Below, piece by piece: positions 50,399 to 62,153 of a stretch of 64,000 bases of DNA. The DNA comes from Selenomonadaceae bacterium (GTDB taxonomy: Bacteria > Bacillota > Negativicutes > Selenomonadales > Selenomonadaceae), in the NCBI GenBank assembly GCA_017518105.1, contig JAFWWC010000026.1, positions 62,001-126,000 on the forward strand, written 5' to 3'. Both the position numbers and the translations under genes were made by a program. The notes under the pieces were generated by a model. The model saw nothing but the letters and a program-made list of their open reading frames with translations. It did not search any database and had not been told where the DNA came from. The first letter of the stretch is position 1; each line of letters opens with the position of its first letter.

Positions 50399-52020
50399 GC
50401 CGAAGCCACCTCCTCAACGTAAAAATCCATAAGCTCAATCGCGTCTACGTAAGGCGTCAGCCCGTCAGCCCAAAGCGTCGCAGTGAACTTTTCCCAACCC
50501 TCGACGGCAGGCAAGCTCCGATTCTGAACTTTTAGCTGCTGGAGGAACTTTTCCGCGTCGGATTGTCCGCGTTGAAGAATCCCGCGCATCTCTTTGATTT
50601 TGTTGCTCGCCATTGCCTTAGGAAACTTCTTCACGCAGTCGATTAGGTTTTCTAGGTTGTGAGCGTCGTCCGTCGGGTTGCAGAGGCGATAGGGTCCGAA
50701 GTGCAAGTTGCCGCGTGCGCCGCGATATTCCGTCGCCCGAATCTGTTCTAGGGTGGGAGCCTGTTCGCCGTGCAGAATTGCGAAATCTAACCAACTGGAG
50801 CCGCTTAGGTCTTCCGTGCCGAGTTTGCGCATTGACTTTTTGGCGGCGTCGCAAAGTTGCTCGGTGAGTTTGTAGCCGCGGAAGAACGGGTACTTCGTCG
50901 GCAAGATTGCCACGCCCGCACAAGCGTCCATGCGTCGCGAAAACTTTTCCGTCAAGTGTTCGGGGGCGTCGGGCGCGGTCTCGGCGTTCAGATTTTCTAT
51001 TAGCGTTTTCGTGAAGAGGATTGCCACATTCGCCGGGCAAAGGAAGGTCACATCGTCGCCGCCGATAATCAGCGGGCGTATCGGCAGACAATCCTTATCG
51101 AGGTCGAGGGCGTCGCCGAAAAGCTCCGATTGCTTCATGCGTATGATTCTTATCAACAGCTCGGCGAAGGCTCCTTCGGTCTTGCGTCTAATCTCGCGGG
51201 AGAGTTTGCGTCGTTCCGTCAGACTCTTGCACGTGCGGAACTTCAAGCCCATGTTGTTGCCGTCAACGTGCACGATAGCAAAATAATTCTCGCCGTCCCG
51301 TTGTCCGAGCCTATCGACTTCAAGCGGGAATTGATAATCGTCCATGCGTTCGGGGAAGTTCTTCAGCGCGAAGATTTCATTAAACCGCGTGCGCAAATTC
51401 CTGTTGGCGTCCTCGGCTGCCTTAGCTTTAACTGCTACCTCCTGCGAATAAAACTTCACGTCGCCCAAAAGCCCTCGCGTGTCGTAGAAGTTCGCCGCCT
51501 CGCCGTTAATCTCGCAACTTAGCGTTAAGCCGGTGTACGGGACGTTGACGGCGGGGAAAATATTGTTTTGGTTCCGCTTGAGCTTGGTGTACAAGGTGTC
51601 TAGGTTCTCTATCTTGTCGTCGACGATTGACACCTCACCGATAGCCGCGCCGACCTTCAAGCCCGGTCTATCGACCAAAAGCTTGCGCGTGAAGTTCTTG
51701 ACGACTTCAACGGGCAAATCGTCCTTGCTGGCGTCGAACAGTAGCAGGGCATTGCCGCCGCCCACGTAAGCCACGCAACAAGTCTTCATGTCAGTCCAGG
51801 GCTTGAGCATGTCATTGGCGGGCGTCCACGCGTCGTCGAGTGCGGAAAACTTTTCGTCGGGGAACATCTTCCTTAGCACGCTGTCAATCAGCACGTCGAA
51901 AAAGATTCGGTCGACTAGATAGGACGCGCCGACGTTCGTGCGGAGCTTGTTGCCCGAATAAATGTAACGCTGGATGCTCCGCGTGTCGAACAGCAATGCC
52001 TTAAAAACTTTTTGAGCCAT
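50374..52020 (-). CDS. cas10: Cas10-like subunit lacking the HD nuclease domain
   Basis: A 548-residue Cas10. It begins directly in the first Palm domain (MAQKVFKALLFDTRSIQRYI, later AYVGGGNALLLF); no N-terminal HD domain is present. VHVDGNNMG and LIIGGDDVTFLCP (about residue 320) form the second, catalytic Palm with an intact GGDD, so cyclic oligoadenylate synthesis is expected. Loss of HD is a known feature of subtype III-D. It is the first gene of the operon, with AGGAGGTG 5 bases before the ATG at 52020. The frame is open further upstream but into the degraded IS region, without a better start. Confidence 0.9.
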   Translation of the reverse strand: MAQKVFKALLFDTRSIQRYIYSGNKLRTNVGASYLVDRIFFDVLIDSVLRKMFPDEKFSALDDAWTPANDMLKPWTDMKTCCVAYVGGGNALLLFDASKDDLPVEVVKNFTRKLLVDRPGLKVGAAIGEVSIVDDKIENLDTLYTKLKRNQNNIFPAVNVPYTGLTLSCEINGEAANFYDTRGLLGDVKFYSQEVAVKAKAAEDANRNLRTRFNEIFALKNFPERMDDYQFPLEVDRLGQRDGENYFAIVHVDGNNMGLKFRTCKSLTERRKLSREIRRKTEGAFAELLIRIIRMKQSELFGDALDLDKDCLPIRPLIIGGDDVTFLCPANVAILFTKTLIENLNAETAPDAPEHLTEKFSRRMDACAGVAILPTKYPFFRGYKLTEQLCDAAKKSMRKLGTEDLSGSSWLDFAILHGEQAPTLEQIRATEYRGARGNLHFGPYRLCNPTDDAHNLENLIDCVKKFPKAMASNKIKEMRGILQRGQSDAEKFLQQLKVQNRSLPAVEGWEKFTATLWADGLTPYVDAIELMDFYVEEVASAWQSLALR

Positions 52021-52079
52021 CTGCTCACCTCCTGTTATATAAAAGTGAATTGAAACCCGAAAGGGTTTTGCTAAAATCC

Positions 52080-52126
52080 AAGCGGACAGGTTTCTTCTTT
52101 CAACCTCCTTGTGGTGCTGTCCACTT
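52080..52126. repeat. Inverted repeat in the gap beside cas10
   Basis: AAGCGGACAG (52080-52089) and CTGTCCACTT (52117-52126) are inverted with one mismatch, separated by 27 bases. They lie just before the IS110 remnant and may be part of its non-coding end. A second small hairpin, AAACCC-GAAA-GGGTTT, lies near 52055-52070. Confidence 0.55.
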
Positions 52127-52143
52127 AATTTAGAGTGAAGACT

Positions 52144-52572
52144 CTGACTTGCAGAATTATGAGCCGGTTGAAGTTCTCCGAATTCGGCATGGAAGCAACA
52201 GGGCATTACTGGTTATCGCTCTACGCTCACCTTCGCCAAGCCGGGCAGAGTGTTCACGTTATCAATCCTTTGCAGTCCGACGCCTTGCGCGTTTATCCGT
52301 CAGACCAAGAACGACACCCAAGACGCGCTAATCGTCGCTGAAGTCATTCATTTCGGGCGTTACTGTGAAAGTTGCTCCCGAAAATATTCAAGCCCTAAGT
52401 GAACTTTGAAATTCGCCGACAGCTTGAGGCTGTCAGTCTCTTTTATCAAAAGAAACGCTCTGAAGGAAAAGACCATTTGATTGCTATCGGGCATGTCTGC
52501 CATAAAATGCTTGCCAAAATTTTCGCCGTCCTTTGTGATAATAAACCTTATGTTCCGGCTTCATTCTCTTGA
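52144..52572 (+). pseudogene. Decayed IS110-family transposase remnant
   Basis: Pieces of an IS110-type DEDD transposase can be read in different frames: FGMEATGHYWLSLYAHLRQAG and VHVINPLQSDALR, then after a frameshift RQTKNDTQDALIVAEVIHFGRY, and finally the C-terminal KKRSEGKDHLIAIGHV...AVLCDNKPY ending at TGA 52570-52572. The N-terminus and the central part are missing, so it is inactive. The 568-base gap between cas10 and truA holds nothing else coding. An insertion next to the CRISPR operon could explain the absence of an array on this side; that is inference. Confidence 0.85.
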
Positions 52573-56830: not shown

Positions 56831-57337
56831 TTATCTGCTGAGGAGGACGGGTTGATTGTATTCGTAGAGGTAATCGTTTAGCAGGCTCGTATCGAAGATT
56901 TTGTTCTCGATAAAGAAGGAGATGATTAAGTCGCGTTTGGATTTGGTCAGCGCGTAGCCGGCGGAAGCAAGAAAATCTTTGGCTTTAGTAATGTCGAGCC
57001 TGAGAGCAATGGCAAGAGCTACGGCGGTATCTTTGCTTGGCTGATAGTCTTTGTTCTTCTTGATTCGGGAAAAAAGTTGGCGGTCGATTTGGGCGCGATT
57101 ATAGACGGCAGAATTTTTTTCGCCGCTCTCGTCCACGAGCCGAGTCATCATTTCCGAGAACGTCTCTCCTTTGTTCTTCTCAAAAATCTTGTCGAAGTCA
57201 ATCTTCTGTGCCAACCGATACCGCGCCACCGACATGCAAGCTTTTGGGGCTTCTGAGGTAAAACTTTCTTCTTCTACTTCCAAAAAGTTTTCGGCAAGAT
57301 AAGCTTCCAATCTCTGCTTAAGTTCTTGACTATCCAT
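56831..57337 (-). CDS. Hypothetical protein, possible HTH-type regulator
   Basis: A 168-residue soluble protein. The central part (SRIKKNKDYQPSKDTAVALAIALRLDITKAKDFLASAG) resembles a helix-turn-helix of the XRE kind, with helical segments on both sides; no enzymatic motif is seen. GGAGG lies 8 bases before the ATG at 57337. It is upstream of the VWA gene, with which it may act, and divergent from the repeat protein gene. The HTH call is a pattern judgement only. Confidence 0.55.
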   Translation of the reverse strand: MDSQELKQRLEAYLAENFLEVEEESFTSEAPKACMSVARYRLAQKIDFDKIFEKNKGETFSEMMTRLVDESGEKNSAVYNRAQIDRQLFSRIKKNKDYQPSKDTAVALAIALRLDITKAKDFLASAGYALTKSKRDLIISFFIENKIFDTSLLNDYLYEYNQPVLLSR

Positions 57338-57373
57338 TGATAACACCTCCAAAATTATTTTATCAGAGCAAAC

Positions 57374-57402
57374 TTGAAAGTAGCAAGGCAATGCAATAAA
57401 AT
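57374..57402 (+). promoter_or_regulatory. Promoter of the large repeat protein gene
   Basis: TTGAAA (57374-57379), 17-base spacer, TAAAAT (57397-57402), 18 bases before the start codon and followed by AAAGGAG. Confidence 0.7.
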
Positions 57403-57419
57403 TCAATCGAAAGGAGCTG

Positions 57420-60149
57420 ATGTGTGCAATGCCATTAATCGACGCAGGCTCAACCGGCATAAGACCTATAGACCGGCAACGACCGACTGACGGCTTAGAC
57501 AGAGTAAGACGACGCGACGACGGAGGCGGCGGTTTCCGACCTCAGACGACAGTCAATTTAAAGACAGCCATTCAAGACATAGCAGCGACACTCGGCAAGA
57601 TTAGCACGGAAGAAAAATACGGGATTCAAAGGTTGCCTAAGGAAGTGGGCGACGTCGTTAAAAATATTTTGCGGCAGTCTTTATCCTTAGACGCGACGCT
57701 CGGCAAGGGCATTGGTAGCACAGTCGAAAGTCAACGCTTTTCAATGGATCAACTCATGCTTTTTTCGCGAATGCTCTTGCAAATCGGAACGCTCGCCGAA
57801 AAGGGTTACTCAATGAAGTTAAGCGAGGAAACTCAAACGTTACTATCCAACTTCAAAGAGGCAATCATAGCGGAGGAAGGCGGCGACGAGTTAGAACCAA
57901 TCCTCATGACAAAGGCATCATTCGAGTTAGTCGACGCTAAGACAGCCGAGCAACTGCCACAAGCCCTCTACGAAATGTTATCACAGCTCGCGAACATGCC
58001 CGACGCCTATCAGCAACAACAGCCGCCTTCCGAGAGTATGCAGTTTTTAAAACAGCTGGTCAGATATTTTATGCCGCGTCCCGAAGTGGATAACTTTCAA
58101 CAGGAACAGCCTCAACCACAACAACCGCCGCAACCTCAGCAGGGACAACAACCGCAGGGCGCGACGCAGAGATTTTTAGAGTCGATGTTCAAGACCTTTG
58201 GCGGGAAATTTGCACAGCCGCAAGCTCAAGGGCAGACGCAGTTCAATCAGCCACAAGCTCAAGGGCAGACGCAGTTCAATCAGCCACAAGCTCAAGGGCA
58301 GACGCAGTTTAATCAGCCGCAAGCTCAAGGACAGGCGCAGTTCAACCCGCCGAATGCTCAAGGGCAGACTCAATTCACTCAGCCGAACGCTCAAGGACAG
58401 ACGCAGTTCAATCCTCCGCAAGCTCAAGGACAGACGCAATTCACTCAGCCGCAAGCTCAAGGACAGGCGCAATTCACTCAGCCGCAAGCTCAAGGACAGA
58501 CGCAGTTCAATCCTCCGCAAGCTCAAGGACAGACGCAGTTCAATCCTCCGCAAGCTCAAGGACAAACGCAGTTCACTCAGCCGCAAGGCCAAGGACAGAC
58601 GCAGTTCACTCAGCCGCAAGCTCAAGGACAGACGCAGTTCACTCAGCCGCAAGCTCAAGGACAGACGCAGTTCACTCAGCCGAATGCCCAAGGACAAGCG
58701 CAATTCAATCAGCCGAATGCCCAAGGACAGACGCAGTTCAATCAGCCCAACGCTCAAGGACAAACGCAATTCACTCAGCCGCAAGGACAAGGACAGACGC
58801 AGTTCAATCCTCCGCAAGCCCAAGGACAAACGCAATTCAATCCGCCGCAAGGACAAGGACAAACGCAATTCAATCAGCCCAACGCTCAAGGACAAACGCA
58901 GTTCAATCAGCCGCAAGCTCAAGGACAAACGCAGTTCAATCAGCCCAACGCTCAAGGACAAACGCAGTTCAATCAGCCCAACGCTCAAGGACAAACGCAA
59001 TTTACTCAGCCGAATGCCCAAGGACAAACGCAATTCAATCCGCCGCAAGGACAAGGACAAACGCAATTTACTCAGCCGAATGCCCAAGGGCAATCGCAGT
59101 TCACTCAGCCGCAAGGCCAAGGACAGACGCAGTTCACTCAGCCCAACGCTCAAGGACAAACGCAATTCAATCCTCCGCAAGCTCAGGGACAGACGCAATT
59201 CACTCAGCCGCAAGCTCAAGGACAAACGCAATTCAATCCTCCGCAAGCTCAGGGACAGACGCAAATGCAAATTGACCCGACGATACCGCGAATGCGTCGA
59301 AGCCGAATCAAACCCAAGCATGTCAGCGAGGATTTCGTTAATCGTCAAGAAGAATTGCGAATGCAAATGGAAATGGCAAAGAACGCCATGCTAAAGCAGA
59401 ACCTACAGAATACACCGCAGACTAACGACACAATGAAGAGCCTAGCGCAATTCCTCCTTAGGAATCCCAGCGCAACGCAGACGCCACGCGAAACCCTCTT
59501 ACTCCAAAACTTCATAAACAATTCGCAACAGATGATGTCCGAGGACGAGGCACGCCACTTGCAAAACCTCCTGCGCCTTTGTCAAAATAATATCCCGCTT
59601 ACCGTCCGGCAAGCAGCCGTCCAACAGAACCTTCCAGATTTGCCGAGGCTTTGGGCTTTTATGCAGATGTGCGACATGGCTAACGTAACGTCGAAGATGA
59701 ACGCCCGCGCCTTTAAACGAGCCGGAAAGGAAGTCGCAGACTTTACGACAGCCATGCGTCACGCTATGAGCGCGGAAAACTCCGTCGTGCAGAATCAACG
59801 CTCCTTCCAGATGATGTTGCCGCTTTATATGGGCGACAACGAGGCAAGCTACCCGACTTATCTAAACGTCTATGACGAGAACACTAAGGACGAGGAGACT
59901 GGGCAAGAAAAAAAAGAAACGTGGTTCCGTATTTGCGTCCTCACGGATTACATTGGAGCGGCGGAATTGGTCTTCCGCGTCTACGAGGAAACTCATCTGG
60001 ATATGCGTTTCTATTTCTCGCGAATCGACATTGCCGAGGAGTTCAGGAGCACTTATCTTGATTCGTTGCGCAATTCCTTAAAGCAGACTGAACTTAACGT
60101 CGGAGAAGTGCGCGTAGGTGGCGTCGGCGAACGCATGTTCAGCTTCTAA
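57420..60149 (+). CDS. Large Q-rich repeat protein with FliK-like C-terminal domain
   Basis: A 909-residue protein without signal peptide. Residues 1-200 are helical. Residues ~265-615 consist of about 32 copies of an 11-residue unit of the type QPQAQGQTQFN, with N/G/A/T/P variants, probably disordered and extended. Residues ~620-909 are helical and end in a domain (WFRICVLTDYIGAAELVFRVYEE, then SLRNSLKQTELNVGEVRVGG) similar in layout to the C-terminus of the flagellar hook-length protein FliK. FliK measures hook length with an extended N-terminal part, so a ruler-type role is possible. No flagellar genes are near. The start could also be the ATG at 57429. Confidence 0.75.
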   Translation: MCAMPLIDAGSTGIRPIDRQRPTDGLDRVRRRDDGGGGFRPQTTVNLKTAIQDIAATLGKISTEEKYGIQRLPKEVGDVVKNILRQSLSLDATLGKGIGSTVESQRFSMDQLMLFSRMLLQIGTLAEKGYSMKLSEETQTLLSNFKEAIIAEEGGDELEPILMTKASFELVDAKTAEQLPQALYEMLSQLANMPDAYQQQQPPSESMQFLKQLVRYFMPRPEVDNFQQEQPQPQQPPQPQQGQQPQGATQRFLESMFKTFGGKFAQPQAQGQTQFNQPQAQGQTQFNQPQAQGQTQFNQPQAQGQAQFNPPNAQGQTQFTQPNAQGQTQFNPPQAQGQTQFTQPQAQGQAQFTQPQAQGQTQFNPPQAQGQTQFNPPQAQGQTQFTQPQGQGQTQFTQPQAQGQTQFTQPQAQGQTQFTQPNAQGQAQFNQPNAQGQTQFNQPNAQGQTQFTQPQGQGQTQFNPPQAQGQTQFNPPQGQGQTQFNQPNAQGQTQFNQPQAQGQTQFNQPNAQGQTQFNQPNAQGQTQFTQPNAQGQTQFNPPQGQGQTQFTQPNAQGQSQFTQPQGQGQTQFTQPNAQGQTQFNPPQAQGQTQFTQPQAQGQTQFNPPQAQGQTQMQIDPTIPRMRRSRIKPKHVSEDFVNRQEELRMQMEMAKNAMLKQNLQNTPQTNDTMKSLAQFLLRNPSATQTPRETLLLQNFINNSQQMMSEDEARHLQNLLRLCQNNIPLTVRQAAVQQNLPDLPRLWAFMQMCDMANVTSKMNARAFKRAGKEVADFTTAMRHAMSAENSVVQNQRSFQMMLPLYMGDNEASYPTYLNVYDENTKDEETGQEKKETWFRICVLTDYIGAAELVFRVYEETHLDMRFYFSRIDIAEEFRSTYLDSLRNSLKQTELNVGEVRVGGVGERMFSF
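58215..59264 (+). repeat. 33-base tandem repeat array, about 32 units
   Basis: Uninterrupted, in-frame 33-base units encoding QPQAQGQTQF(N/T). Most differences are at fixed positions (Gln/Asn, Ala/Gly, Thr/Ala, Asn/Thr, Gln/Pro). The array keeps frame across its whole length. Confidence 0.95.
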
Positions 60150-60226: not shown

Positions 60227-62153
60227 TTGATAATTTCAAGTATAGGAGCTGGAACAGGCAACCAGATGTTTATGTTATGCTACAGGGCGTCGTTTGGCTC
60301 ACAAATTAAACACCGAATTTAAAATCGATATTACGCGAGTATTTGGTAACAAACTTCACCCGTATGGATTGGATAAGTTAAACATATCTGCGCCCGTTGC
60401 GACACCCGAAGAAATAAAAATATGCAAAGCTTTTTCAGAAGCAAATGGTTTGGGTACCGAACCACCAGATCAGAGATTTGTGCCCGAAGTTTTGGATTAT
60501 CCCGATAACGTCTACCTTAGAGGATATTGGATTAAAGAACAATATTTTGCAGATATTGCCGACATTATTAGGAAAGAATTTACTTTGAAAGATCCGCTCA
60601 GTCCGTGTGCCGAAGCATGGAAGAAAAAAATTCTTTCTGCTGAGTGTTCTGTGGCAATGCATTTCCGCCATGGCGATTTTATTTATAACCCTAATCGTCA
60701 AAAATCTTGGCATGGGAGCCTTTCTTTGGACTTTTACTGCGACACTATAAATTTTTTAAAAAAGGAGATATATAACAATCCAACTGCATTTGTGTTTTCA
60801 AATAATCTGCACGGATGCAAGAAAAACCTTCATTTAGACGTGCCGACGGAATTTGTTGAGGGTTGTGCTAACCACATGGAAGAGCTTTATTTAATGAGCC
60901 TTTGCCATCACGATATCATTCCACCCAGCACTTTTAGTTGGTGGGCGGCTTGGCTTAACCCTAATCCCGACAAAAAAGTTTTTCAAGCTAACCCAGCAAG
61001 TGCCACGCGTGCAAAGTCTTATCGTTATTCGTTAGATAATATTAGAAAAAAGGATTCCGAGTTAGATTCAGACAAGTGGATATACGTTCCTTATGACAAC
61101 CAAAACCCTCAGGATATAGAAATGCGACCATATTTCTCAATCTGTCTTGTCGTAAACAATGATGCCTCTACGATTCAAGATACACTCGACAGCCTTTTCG
61201 AATTGGATTATAAATATTATGAGGTCATTATAATTGACAATGCCTCCACCGATGGCACTGACGAAATTTGTCGAAAAGCCATAGCAGGAAAAAAGAACGT
61301 TACCTTCAAAAGTTTGTGGTCAAAAATGAAGAATACCGCGGTCTGGAATATGGCATTTAAATTTGTACAAGGTTACTTCGTCTCTTTCCTCAAAGGAAAC
61401 GACCGTTTACTTCCCGATACTCTTTCCATTTTGTACGCTCCAAATGAGTACGCATTAAGAGACATATCTTGCAGTTTTGCATGGTTAGAAGAAAACCAGA
61501 ACGGCGAGATAACTTTTGGAGACAAAACCTTTATCGAGAAGCGCGACAAACAATTTCAAAAAAATACAGACCGTTTCGGTCTCCGTGGCAAAGATGCTTT
61601 TAAATATTTTAATAATCAACAGCTTAACACTCTCATGGGGACGAAACTTTTTAAGTGCGAATTTCTTAAAGAATACGGAATCAAATTTGATGAACGACTT
61701 CCTGACGATATGGCAGAAATGTTTTTCTTGATAGAGGCTTTTTTCAAAGCTAAAGATTCTGTATTCGTTCCCAATGCCTTTTACATTTCGCCTCGGAAGT
61801 CCTTTGCCATGAACGAGAAGCTCAACGAACCGTTACTTTCCGTAAAGGATAAACCTGCTTCGACTGCAAAGGATAAGCCCGACCCGACTGCAGAGGATAA
61901 GCCCGACCCGACTGCAGAGGATAAGCCTGCTCCGACTGCAGAGGATAAGCCCGACCCGACTGCAGAGGATAAGCCCGCTCCGACTGCAGAGGATAAGCCC
62001 GCTTCGACTGCAGAGGATAAGCCCGACCCGACTACAGAGGATAAGCCCGACCCGACTGCAGAGGAAGTGCCCGCGAATGAGTGCCATGACTTTTACACAG
62101 CCGCAAACCTCGACGCACTCGACATATCGAATATCAACCGAGCACGCCTCTGA
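60227..62153 (+). pseudogene. Two-domain glycosyltransferase (GT11 fucosyltransferase-like + GT2) with N-terminal frameshift
   Basis: Starting at a TTG at 60227 (AAGGTGA upstream) the product begins IISSIGAGTGNQMFM, the GT11 N-terminus, then shifts frame. Removing one T at 60275-60276 would give MFMYATGRRLAHKLNTE, the family pattern, joining the long frame from 60294 to TGA 62153. Further GT11 motifs are AMHFRHGDF and STFSWWAAWLN. A GT2-like domain follows (SICLVVNNDASTIQDTLDSL, IIIDNASTDGT). The C-terminus has nine 8-residue repeats. As read, the long frame could only start at an internal TTG (60294) without the nucleotide-binding N-terminus. The gene is clearly more AT-rich than its neighbours, which suggests transfer. 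Confidence 0.8.
61848..62063 (+). repeat. 24-base tandem repeat, nine units, in the glycosyltransferase C-terminus
   Basis: Nine in-frame units encode DKP(D/A)(P/S)T(A/T)(E/K). They are GC-richer than the rest of the gene and likely form a flexible acidic tail. Confidence 0.93.

Follow-up and report, generated by a model that had tools for sequence, protein, structure and literature searches.

A second FliK-type protein with a repeat-filled linker in Quinella, from a family whose usual neighbour is a free FlhB C-terminal domain

Introduction

A stretch of 64,000 nucleotides from a Selenomonadaceae bacterium (contig JAFWWC010000026.1, positions 62,001 to 126,000; hereafter the window) contains a 909-codon open reading frame (ORF; 57420-60149, + strand), in which a regular array of 33 base pairs (bp) encodes a long chain rich in glutamine, asparagine, proline and glycine. 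What kind of protein is this, and does its chain measure a length? An earlier note, made from the letters alone, had proposed that about 32 eleven-residue repeats stand between two helical regions ahead of a FliK-like C-terminus, and that the number of repeats could set a length or a tether distance.

FliK of Salmonella is an exported protein that measures the hook with its N-terminal part and linker and acts on FlhB through its C-terminal domain (PMC6972891). Good binding of that domain to FlhB needs a linker of proper length (PMC6972891), and FliK has been proposed to expel the cleaved C-terminal domain of FlhB from the apparatus (PMC13344023). The analysis reported here points to the window protein as a FliK paralogue whose usual partner is a free FlhB domain. 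We give a probability of roughly 0.55 to the reading that it is a second FliK-type flagellar export switch protein, whose linker evolved with the length of FliK and acts as a reach element or ruler spanning the rod plus hook.

Results

The window gene is a second FliK-type gene outside the hook cluster

The source genome belongs to Quinella (Selenomonadaceae), and it carries a clear FliK on another contig (L081:7601-10744, - strand; contig C24 of genome G000). This own FliK has 1048 amino acids (aa), matches the Flg_hook family (PF02120) with 67 bits, adjoins flgD, and has a linker in which a 13-residue Q/P-rich unit recurs about 27 times. The window protein is therefore a second, paralogous FliK-type protein and, unlike the own FliK, its gene lies outside the flagellar hook cluster (flgD, flgE). 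The FliK, FlhB and FlhA matches found in the genome were located on contigs other than that of the window, and nothing flagellar was found among the ORFs inspected around the gene; the earlier statement that the window holds no flagellar genes was thus left uncontradicted. FliK proteins of Quinella reach 1460 aa (G035). Compared with the 405 aa of Salmonella FliK, such lengths make unusually long hooks possible.

Full-length relatives of the window protein share one anatomy, in which a low-complexity linker joins two conserved regions, an N-terminal one of about 220 aa and a C-terminal one of about 270 aa. This resembles FliK, which likewise has an N-terminal part, a linker and a C-terminal T3S4-type domain, and the two proteins occur in flagellated genomes. 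The FliK-like protein differs from FliK in being encoded by a separate gene in an rnhB-FlhX neighbourhood instead of the flgD-flgE one, and in having an extra conserved helical region ahead of its T3S4-like domain.

The C-terminal region is FliK-like at the level of the family

Flg_hook matched 12 of 27 orthologous C-terminal regions, with a best E value of 2.4e-9, and in every orthologue match inspected individually the matched part was the last ~75 residues. One orthologue shown (L136) scored 34.2 bits, above the curated cut-off of 29.8. The window protein itself falls below detection by the FliK model, and the sole match in a whole-genome Flg_hook search was the own FliK. The proposed resemblance of its C-terminus to FliK therefore holds for the family, at the equivalent position, and not for the single sequence. 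Other matches were dropped: DUF5347 and ATG2 were below cut-off and hardly common to the orthologues, while an RDM3 beta-solenoid match was low-complexity and far below cut-off.

An AlphaFold model of the C-terminal region had an overall predicted local distance difference test (pLDDT) score of 60, rising to mostly 70-84 over the last ~90 residues. In the model these residues form four strands, a helix and a strand, and they constitute the putative FliK_C/T3S4-like beta domain (59853..60146, + strand). Ahead of it lies the conserved helical part with seven predicted helices (59337..59852, + strand; approximate boundary from the alignment; pLDDT mostly 50-70). The modelled domain gave no significant hit in a Foldseek search of the PDB (best E only 0.052, to an unrelated protein), and no sequence match with any solved structure was found. 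When it was realigned to 993 solved chains, the switch domain of PscP (5cuk) ranked second (weak Z 5.8, 75 residues, 3.4 A) and FliK_C (2rrl) ranked fifth (weak Z 5.1, 78 residues, 4.0 A). PscP/YscP is the needle-length ruler of the injectisome, and its layout of a linker plus a switch domain is of the same kind as that of the FliK-like protein. The presence of two T3S4 domains within the top five structures agrees with the sequence result, while the Z values alone prove nothing. Taken with the Pfam matches of the orthologues, this possible fold match indicates that the C-terminus of the window protein is FliK-like at family level.

The gene is usually paired with a free FlhB C-terminal domain

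Across Negativicutes, the order rbgA/ylqF, rnhB, FliK-like gene and FlhB C-domain gene recurs, and in other genera of Selenomonadaceae it is typically rbgA, rnhB, FliK-like gene, small FlhB-like gene, yraN and comM. The small FlhB-like protein (FlhX) has roughly 95-125 aa, and its likeness to the FlhB family is confined to the final ~75 positions. It matches PF01312 at positions 259-335 with 77-78 bits, above the cut-off, and it scores 106.3 bits against TIGR00789 ('FlhB-like flagellar biosynthesis protein'), just under the cut-off of 117.35. FlhX was found directly downstream of the FliK-like gene at 18 of 19 Selenomonadaceae loci and at 13 of 20 loci of other Negativicutes families, and at 10 of 44 Quinella loci. 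In the genome of the window it has moved to another contig (G000:C10:52523-52870), directly adjoining flgE (50617-52368); the same segment is L080:7921-10171 (- strand), equal to G000:C10:50620-52870.

The pair occurs together with flagella

Orthologues were present in 218 of 380 Negativicutes genomes, which were counted as independent without correction for phylogeny. In this sample, 207 genomes had both FlhA and the FliK-like gene and 133 had neither, while 11 had the FliK-like gene only and 29 had FlhA only; the discordant genomes were mostly incomplete or fragmented. The flagella-less Selenomonadaceae genera g7, g8 and g16 lacked FlhA, FliK, the FlhB-like gene and the FliK-like gene. FlhX occurs in genomes that carry FlhB as well, and it was missing in nearly all FlhA-less genomes tested, the exceptions being G161, G180 and the incomplete G118.

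These results bear on the idea that the FliK-like/FlhX pair serves a non-flagellar process, such as a different kind of export or a task in the envelope. The genes usually stand beside rbgA, rnhB, yraN and comM, away from flagellar clusters. In addition, G161 (L141; 99% complete) and G180 have neither FlhA nor full-length FlhB nor a true FliK, yet they keep the two genes side by side, perhaps because flagella were lost recently or because the pair has another function. However, the co-occurrence with FlhA is strong across the class and extends to non-flagellated genera and families, in which both are missing, the pair has decayed in the long-non-flagellated g7, g8 and g16 and in sampled f2 genomes, and an FlhX gene away from the FliK-like gene can sit on a flagellar contig, as it does beside flgE here. 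We therefore consider a role outside the flagellum unlikely.

The length of the protein follows that of FliK in Selenomonadaceae

The lengths of the FliK-like protein and of FliK, outside the C-domain, were measured from sequence in 63 Selenomonadaceae genomes, with four genomes excluded for sequence gaps, a frameshift or a short frame. The relation had first been noticed in rough open-frame lengths and was then re-measured, so it is not a pre-set test. The two lengths were correlated overall (Spearman 0.74, 63 genomes), within Quinella (0.82, 17 genomes) and in the rest (0.73, 46 genomes). Independent contrasts on a tree of the C-domain gave r=0.81, with 46 of 62 in the same direction (permutation p 5e-5), and 0.78 with unit branch lengths. 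The relation reached 0.90 in genomes at least 99% complete, was 0.55 after removal of the four longest, and was also seen in the 34 genomes with no tandem array in either protein (r=0.66, 25 vs 8). As controls, the contrasts of IF-2 (-0.03 and 0.05) and SSB (-0.02 and -0.01) were flat. Fragmented assembly is unlikely to be the cause, for contig number as a covariate left a partial r of 0.81. The length of the non-repeat remainder alone showed no correlation, so the relation is with total length. In one pair of genomes the FliK-like protein and FliK had 967 and 899 residues (G164) versus 706 and 557 (G165). Such co-variation suggests, without proving it, that one structure dictates the size of both proteins.

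Several results weigh against the reading of a second FliK-type switch protein with a ruler-like chain. The window protein gave no Flg_hook match even at E=1, the structural Z values are under the level often reached by unrelated folds, and an hhalign comparison of the family C-domain profile with the FliK domain of the same genus was not significant, being no better than column-shuffled controls. G161 and G180, described above, keep the pair without the flagellar proteins named. The length relation fell to 0.35 without the eight largest contrasts, vanished in a low-variance subset of 23 genomes, and was not significant in sister pairs alone (13 to 8). In 12 genomes of other Negativicutes families the lengths did not co-vary (rho 0.11), and linker-free orthologues of 305-407 aa (L231, L233, L223, L229 and L235) belong to genomes that carry flagellar genes. 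Moreover, the two linkers of one genome resembled each other in composition beyond expectation (0.303 against 0.359 expected), and thus a common sequence bias could contribute to the length relation.

On that basis the protein might still be a FliK paralogue with a linker that is only a spacer, whose length drifts by slippage and lost constraint and follows that of FliK through shared compositional and mutational bias. Besides the shared composition, the Q content of the two linkers co-varies, as does their tandem coverage (rho 0.60), unit sequence and period change very fast, and the families without the length relation include the linker-free proteins. An unrelated array is also present in the adjoining glycosyltransferase gene, and arrays of this kind are thus not a mark of rulers in the window. 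Drift under a shared bias is, however, harder to reconcile with the persistence of the relation where neither protein has an array and with its absence in IF-2 and SSB. Moreover, the best repeat periods differed in 12 of 12 genomes in which both proteins carry arrays, with no sign of arrays copied from each other; repeat copying between the two genes is accordingly unsupported. We regard the spacer explanation as possible, at clearly lower odds than a ruler or reach element. The ruler idea thus has indirect support from co-variation in one family, Selenomonadaceae, and none outside it.

The eleven-residue array is one way of building the linker

Tandem Repeats Finder detected a single 33-bp array (58215..59263, + strand; 85% matches, score 1318) with 31.8 copies as read from a 50-contig assembly, and its translation gave 31 complete eleven-residue units plus a partial one, in agreement with the count of about 32 given before. 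The consensus of the Q/N/P/G-rich units is Q/P-P-(Q/N)-(A/G)-Q-G-Q-T-Q-F-(N/T). The 31 units have 28 distinct DNA versions, with a mean difference of about 5.3 bases, and shuffling the residues of the linker abolished all periodicity of the array. The array follows a Q/P-rich, low-complexity start of the linker without regular repeat (58101..58214, + strand; approximate boundary).

The closest relatives come from metagenome assemblies of Quinella and other Selenomonadaceae, from rumens and other ruminant gut sites. The C-terminal region was found in 48 of 66 Quinella genomes, as a single gene in each (one split over two contigs), with identities of 52-98%. Contigs of the relatives often terminate within the linker, as expected because short-read assemblies break at repeats. 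In Quinella the linker is Q/N/P-rich and spans 156 to 780 residues, and the length and sequence of the unit differ even among species whose C-domains are 93-98% identical: a species 94% identical in the C-domain has mostly 12-residue units versus 11 in the window protein, and others have none. No tandem array was detected in 36 of 63 Selenomonadaceae orthologues. Across the orthologues the linker can be Q-rich, A/N/S-rich or charged, and outside Selenomonadaceae there are also linkers with many hydrophobic residues and proteins that have none. Since many orthologues lack the array, some lack the whole linker and the units change fast, the repeat serves as local filling of the linker and is not a defining part of the protein. 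The eleven-residue array of this Quinella is one among several ways of building linker length, and of the proposal that repeats set a length, the total length of the chain is what gained indirect support, while the repeat itself did not. Of the two outcomes that the earlier note had named as refuting, homologues without repeats were indeed observed, while a lack of any structural match to FliK was not.

Two further explanations start from the linker itself. The earlier note had also considered that the Q/N content points to self-association, and with 37% Q the linker might form a prion-like or phase-separating assembly. No evidence beyond this composition was found, and among the orthologues the variation of the linkers leaves the FliK-like domain and the neighbouring FlhX in place, so we judge this very improbable. 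A surface adhesin or collagen-like protein is suggested by NCBIfam matches to BigA (46 bits, window protein) and SclB (60 bits, an orthologue). These lie far below the curated cut-offs (3400 bits for BigA, 325 bits for SclB) and are confined to the low-complexity linker, with no such domain elsewhere in the protein; the matches were discarded as low-complexity, and this explanation appears the least probable of all.

Reading frame, N-terminal region and neighbouring genes

The first residue of the homologues corresponds to the fourth of the listed ORF (MPLIDAG...), so 57429 is the likelier start, giving a coding sequence of 906 aa at 57429..60149 (+ strand). Its N-terminal region of about 220 aa (57429..58100, + strand) ends near an FMPRP motif in an alignment of 17 sequences and is conserved across Selenomonadaceae, with 53% mean column identity. 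A Pfam search with it gave no match over the cut-off and placed it in no known family, and its AlphaFold model (pLDDT 43) was too poor for a structure search. Of the two helical regions described before, the one on the C-terminal side is predicted, and the one on the N-terminal side appears at low confidence only.

Because the period of 33 bp is a multiple of three, the array also holds long open frames on both strands (58198-59394, + strand; 58176-59366, - strand), which are shadows easily mis-annotated as genes. The divergent upstream gene (56831-57460, - strand) matched no Pfam family over the cut-off. Judging from its homologue at L041, its true start is probably near 57337, so that the two frames overlap in appearance only. 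Downstream, the glycosyltransferase gene (60294-62153) is a fusion of Glyco_transf_11 and Glycos_transf_2, and its 24-bp tandem array (61846-62065, 8.5 copies, KPDPTAED-type units) is near the 3' end.

Discussion

The best-supported reading of the linker, still unproven, is that of a second ruler or reach element. The window protein would be exported like FliK, and the chain between its two domains, which is probably disordered, would have to span the same structure as FliK, the rod plus hook, before the C-domain could act. The FliK-like protein would then bind FlhX or FlhB and, once the chain spans the finished rod and hook, act on the free domain, which could replace or mimic the cleaved one. 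A FliK-like gene beside a free FlhB domain fits the proposed scheme in which FliK drives the removal of the cleaved FlhB C-terminal domain. The own FliK of the genome also has a long Q/P-rich repeat linker. A bolder and more doubtful version is that Selenomonadaceae flagella have two rulers matched to one structure, of which FliK acts on FlhB and the second on FlhX. The hook-to-filament switch would then require length to be read twice, or FlhX would be a spare clip that its own dedicated ruler inserts and removes.

FlhX is of the same kind as HP1575 of Helicobacter pylori (TIGR00789); here the likeness is to the partner gene, which is the C-terminal (CC) part of FlhB only, and not to the window protein. 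The free domain HP1575 can reportedly stand in for the FlhB domain (Wand et al. 2006, cited in PMC3040844). The gene order in Bacillus subtilis, which we take to be ylqF-rnhB-ylqG-ylqH, is the one seen in Negativicutes, and YlqG is presumably the counterpart of the window protein by gene order alone. In a population of B. subtilis evolved by swarming, one report lists ylqG P457Q as recurrent in several clones (PMC11523185). This was the sole paper naming ylqG in our literature searches, which returned no study on the function of YlqG/YlqH or on two co-sized FliK proteins. For Nitratiruptor, one paper mentions flhX and fliK as a pair lying away from the main flagellar cluster (PMC9321776), and the papers found describe no function for the FliK-like/FlhX pair.

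How the reading of hook length is turned into the export switch is a long-standing question, and a recent answer centres on FliK removing the cleaved FlhB C-terminal domain (PMC13344023). The widespread pairing of another FliK-type protein with a free C-terminal domain of FlhB offers a ready test of this removal model, and the ruler idea could be measured in species pairs that differ in the lengths of the two FliK-type proteins, with no more than electron microscopy of their hooks. A function would thereby fall to a conserved gene of unknown role that usually stands near the housekeeping genes rbgA and rnhB.
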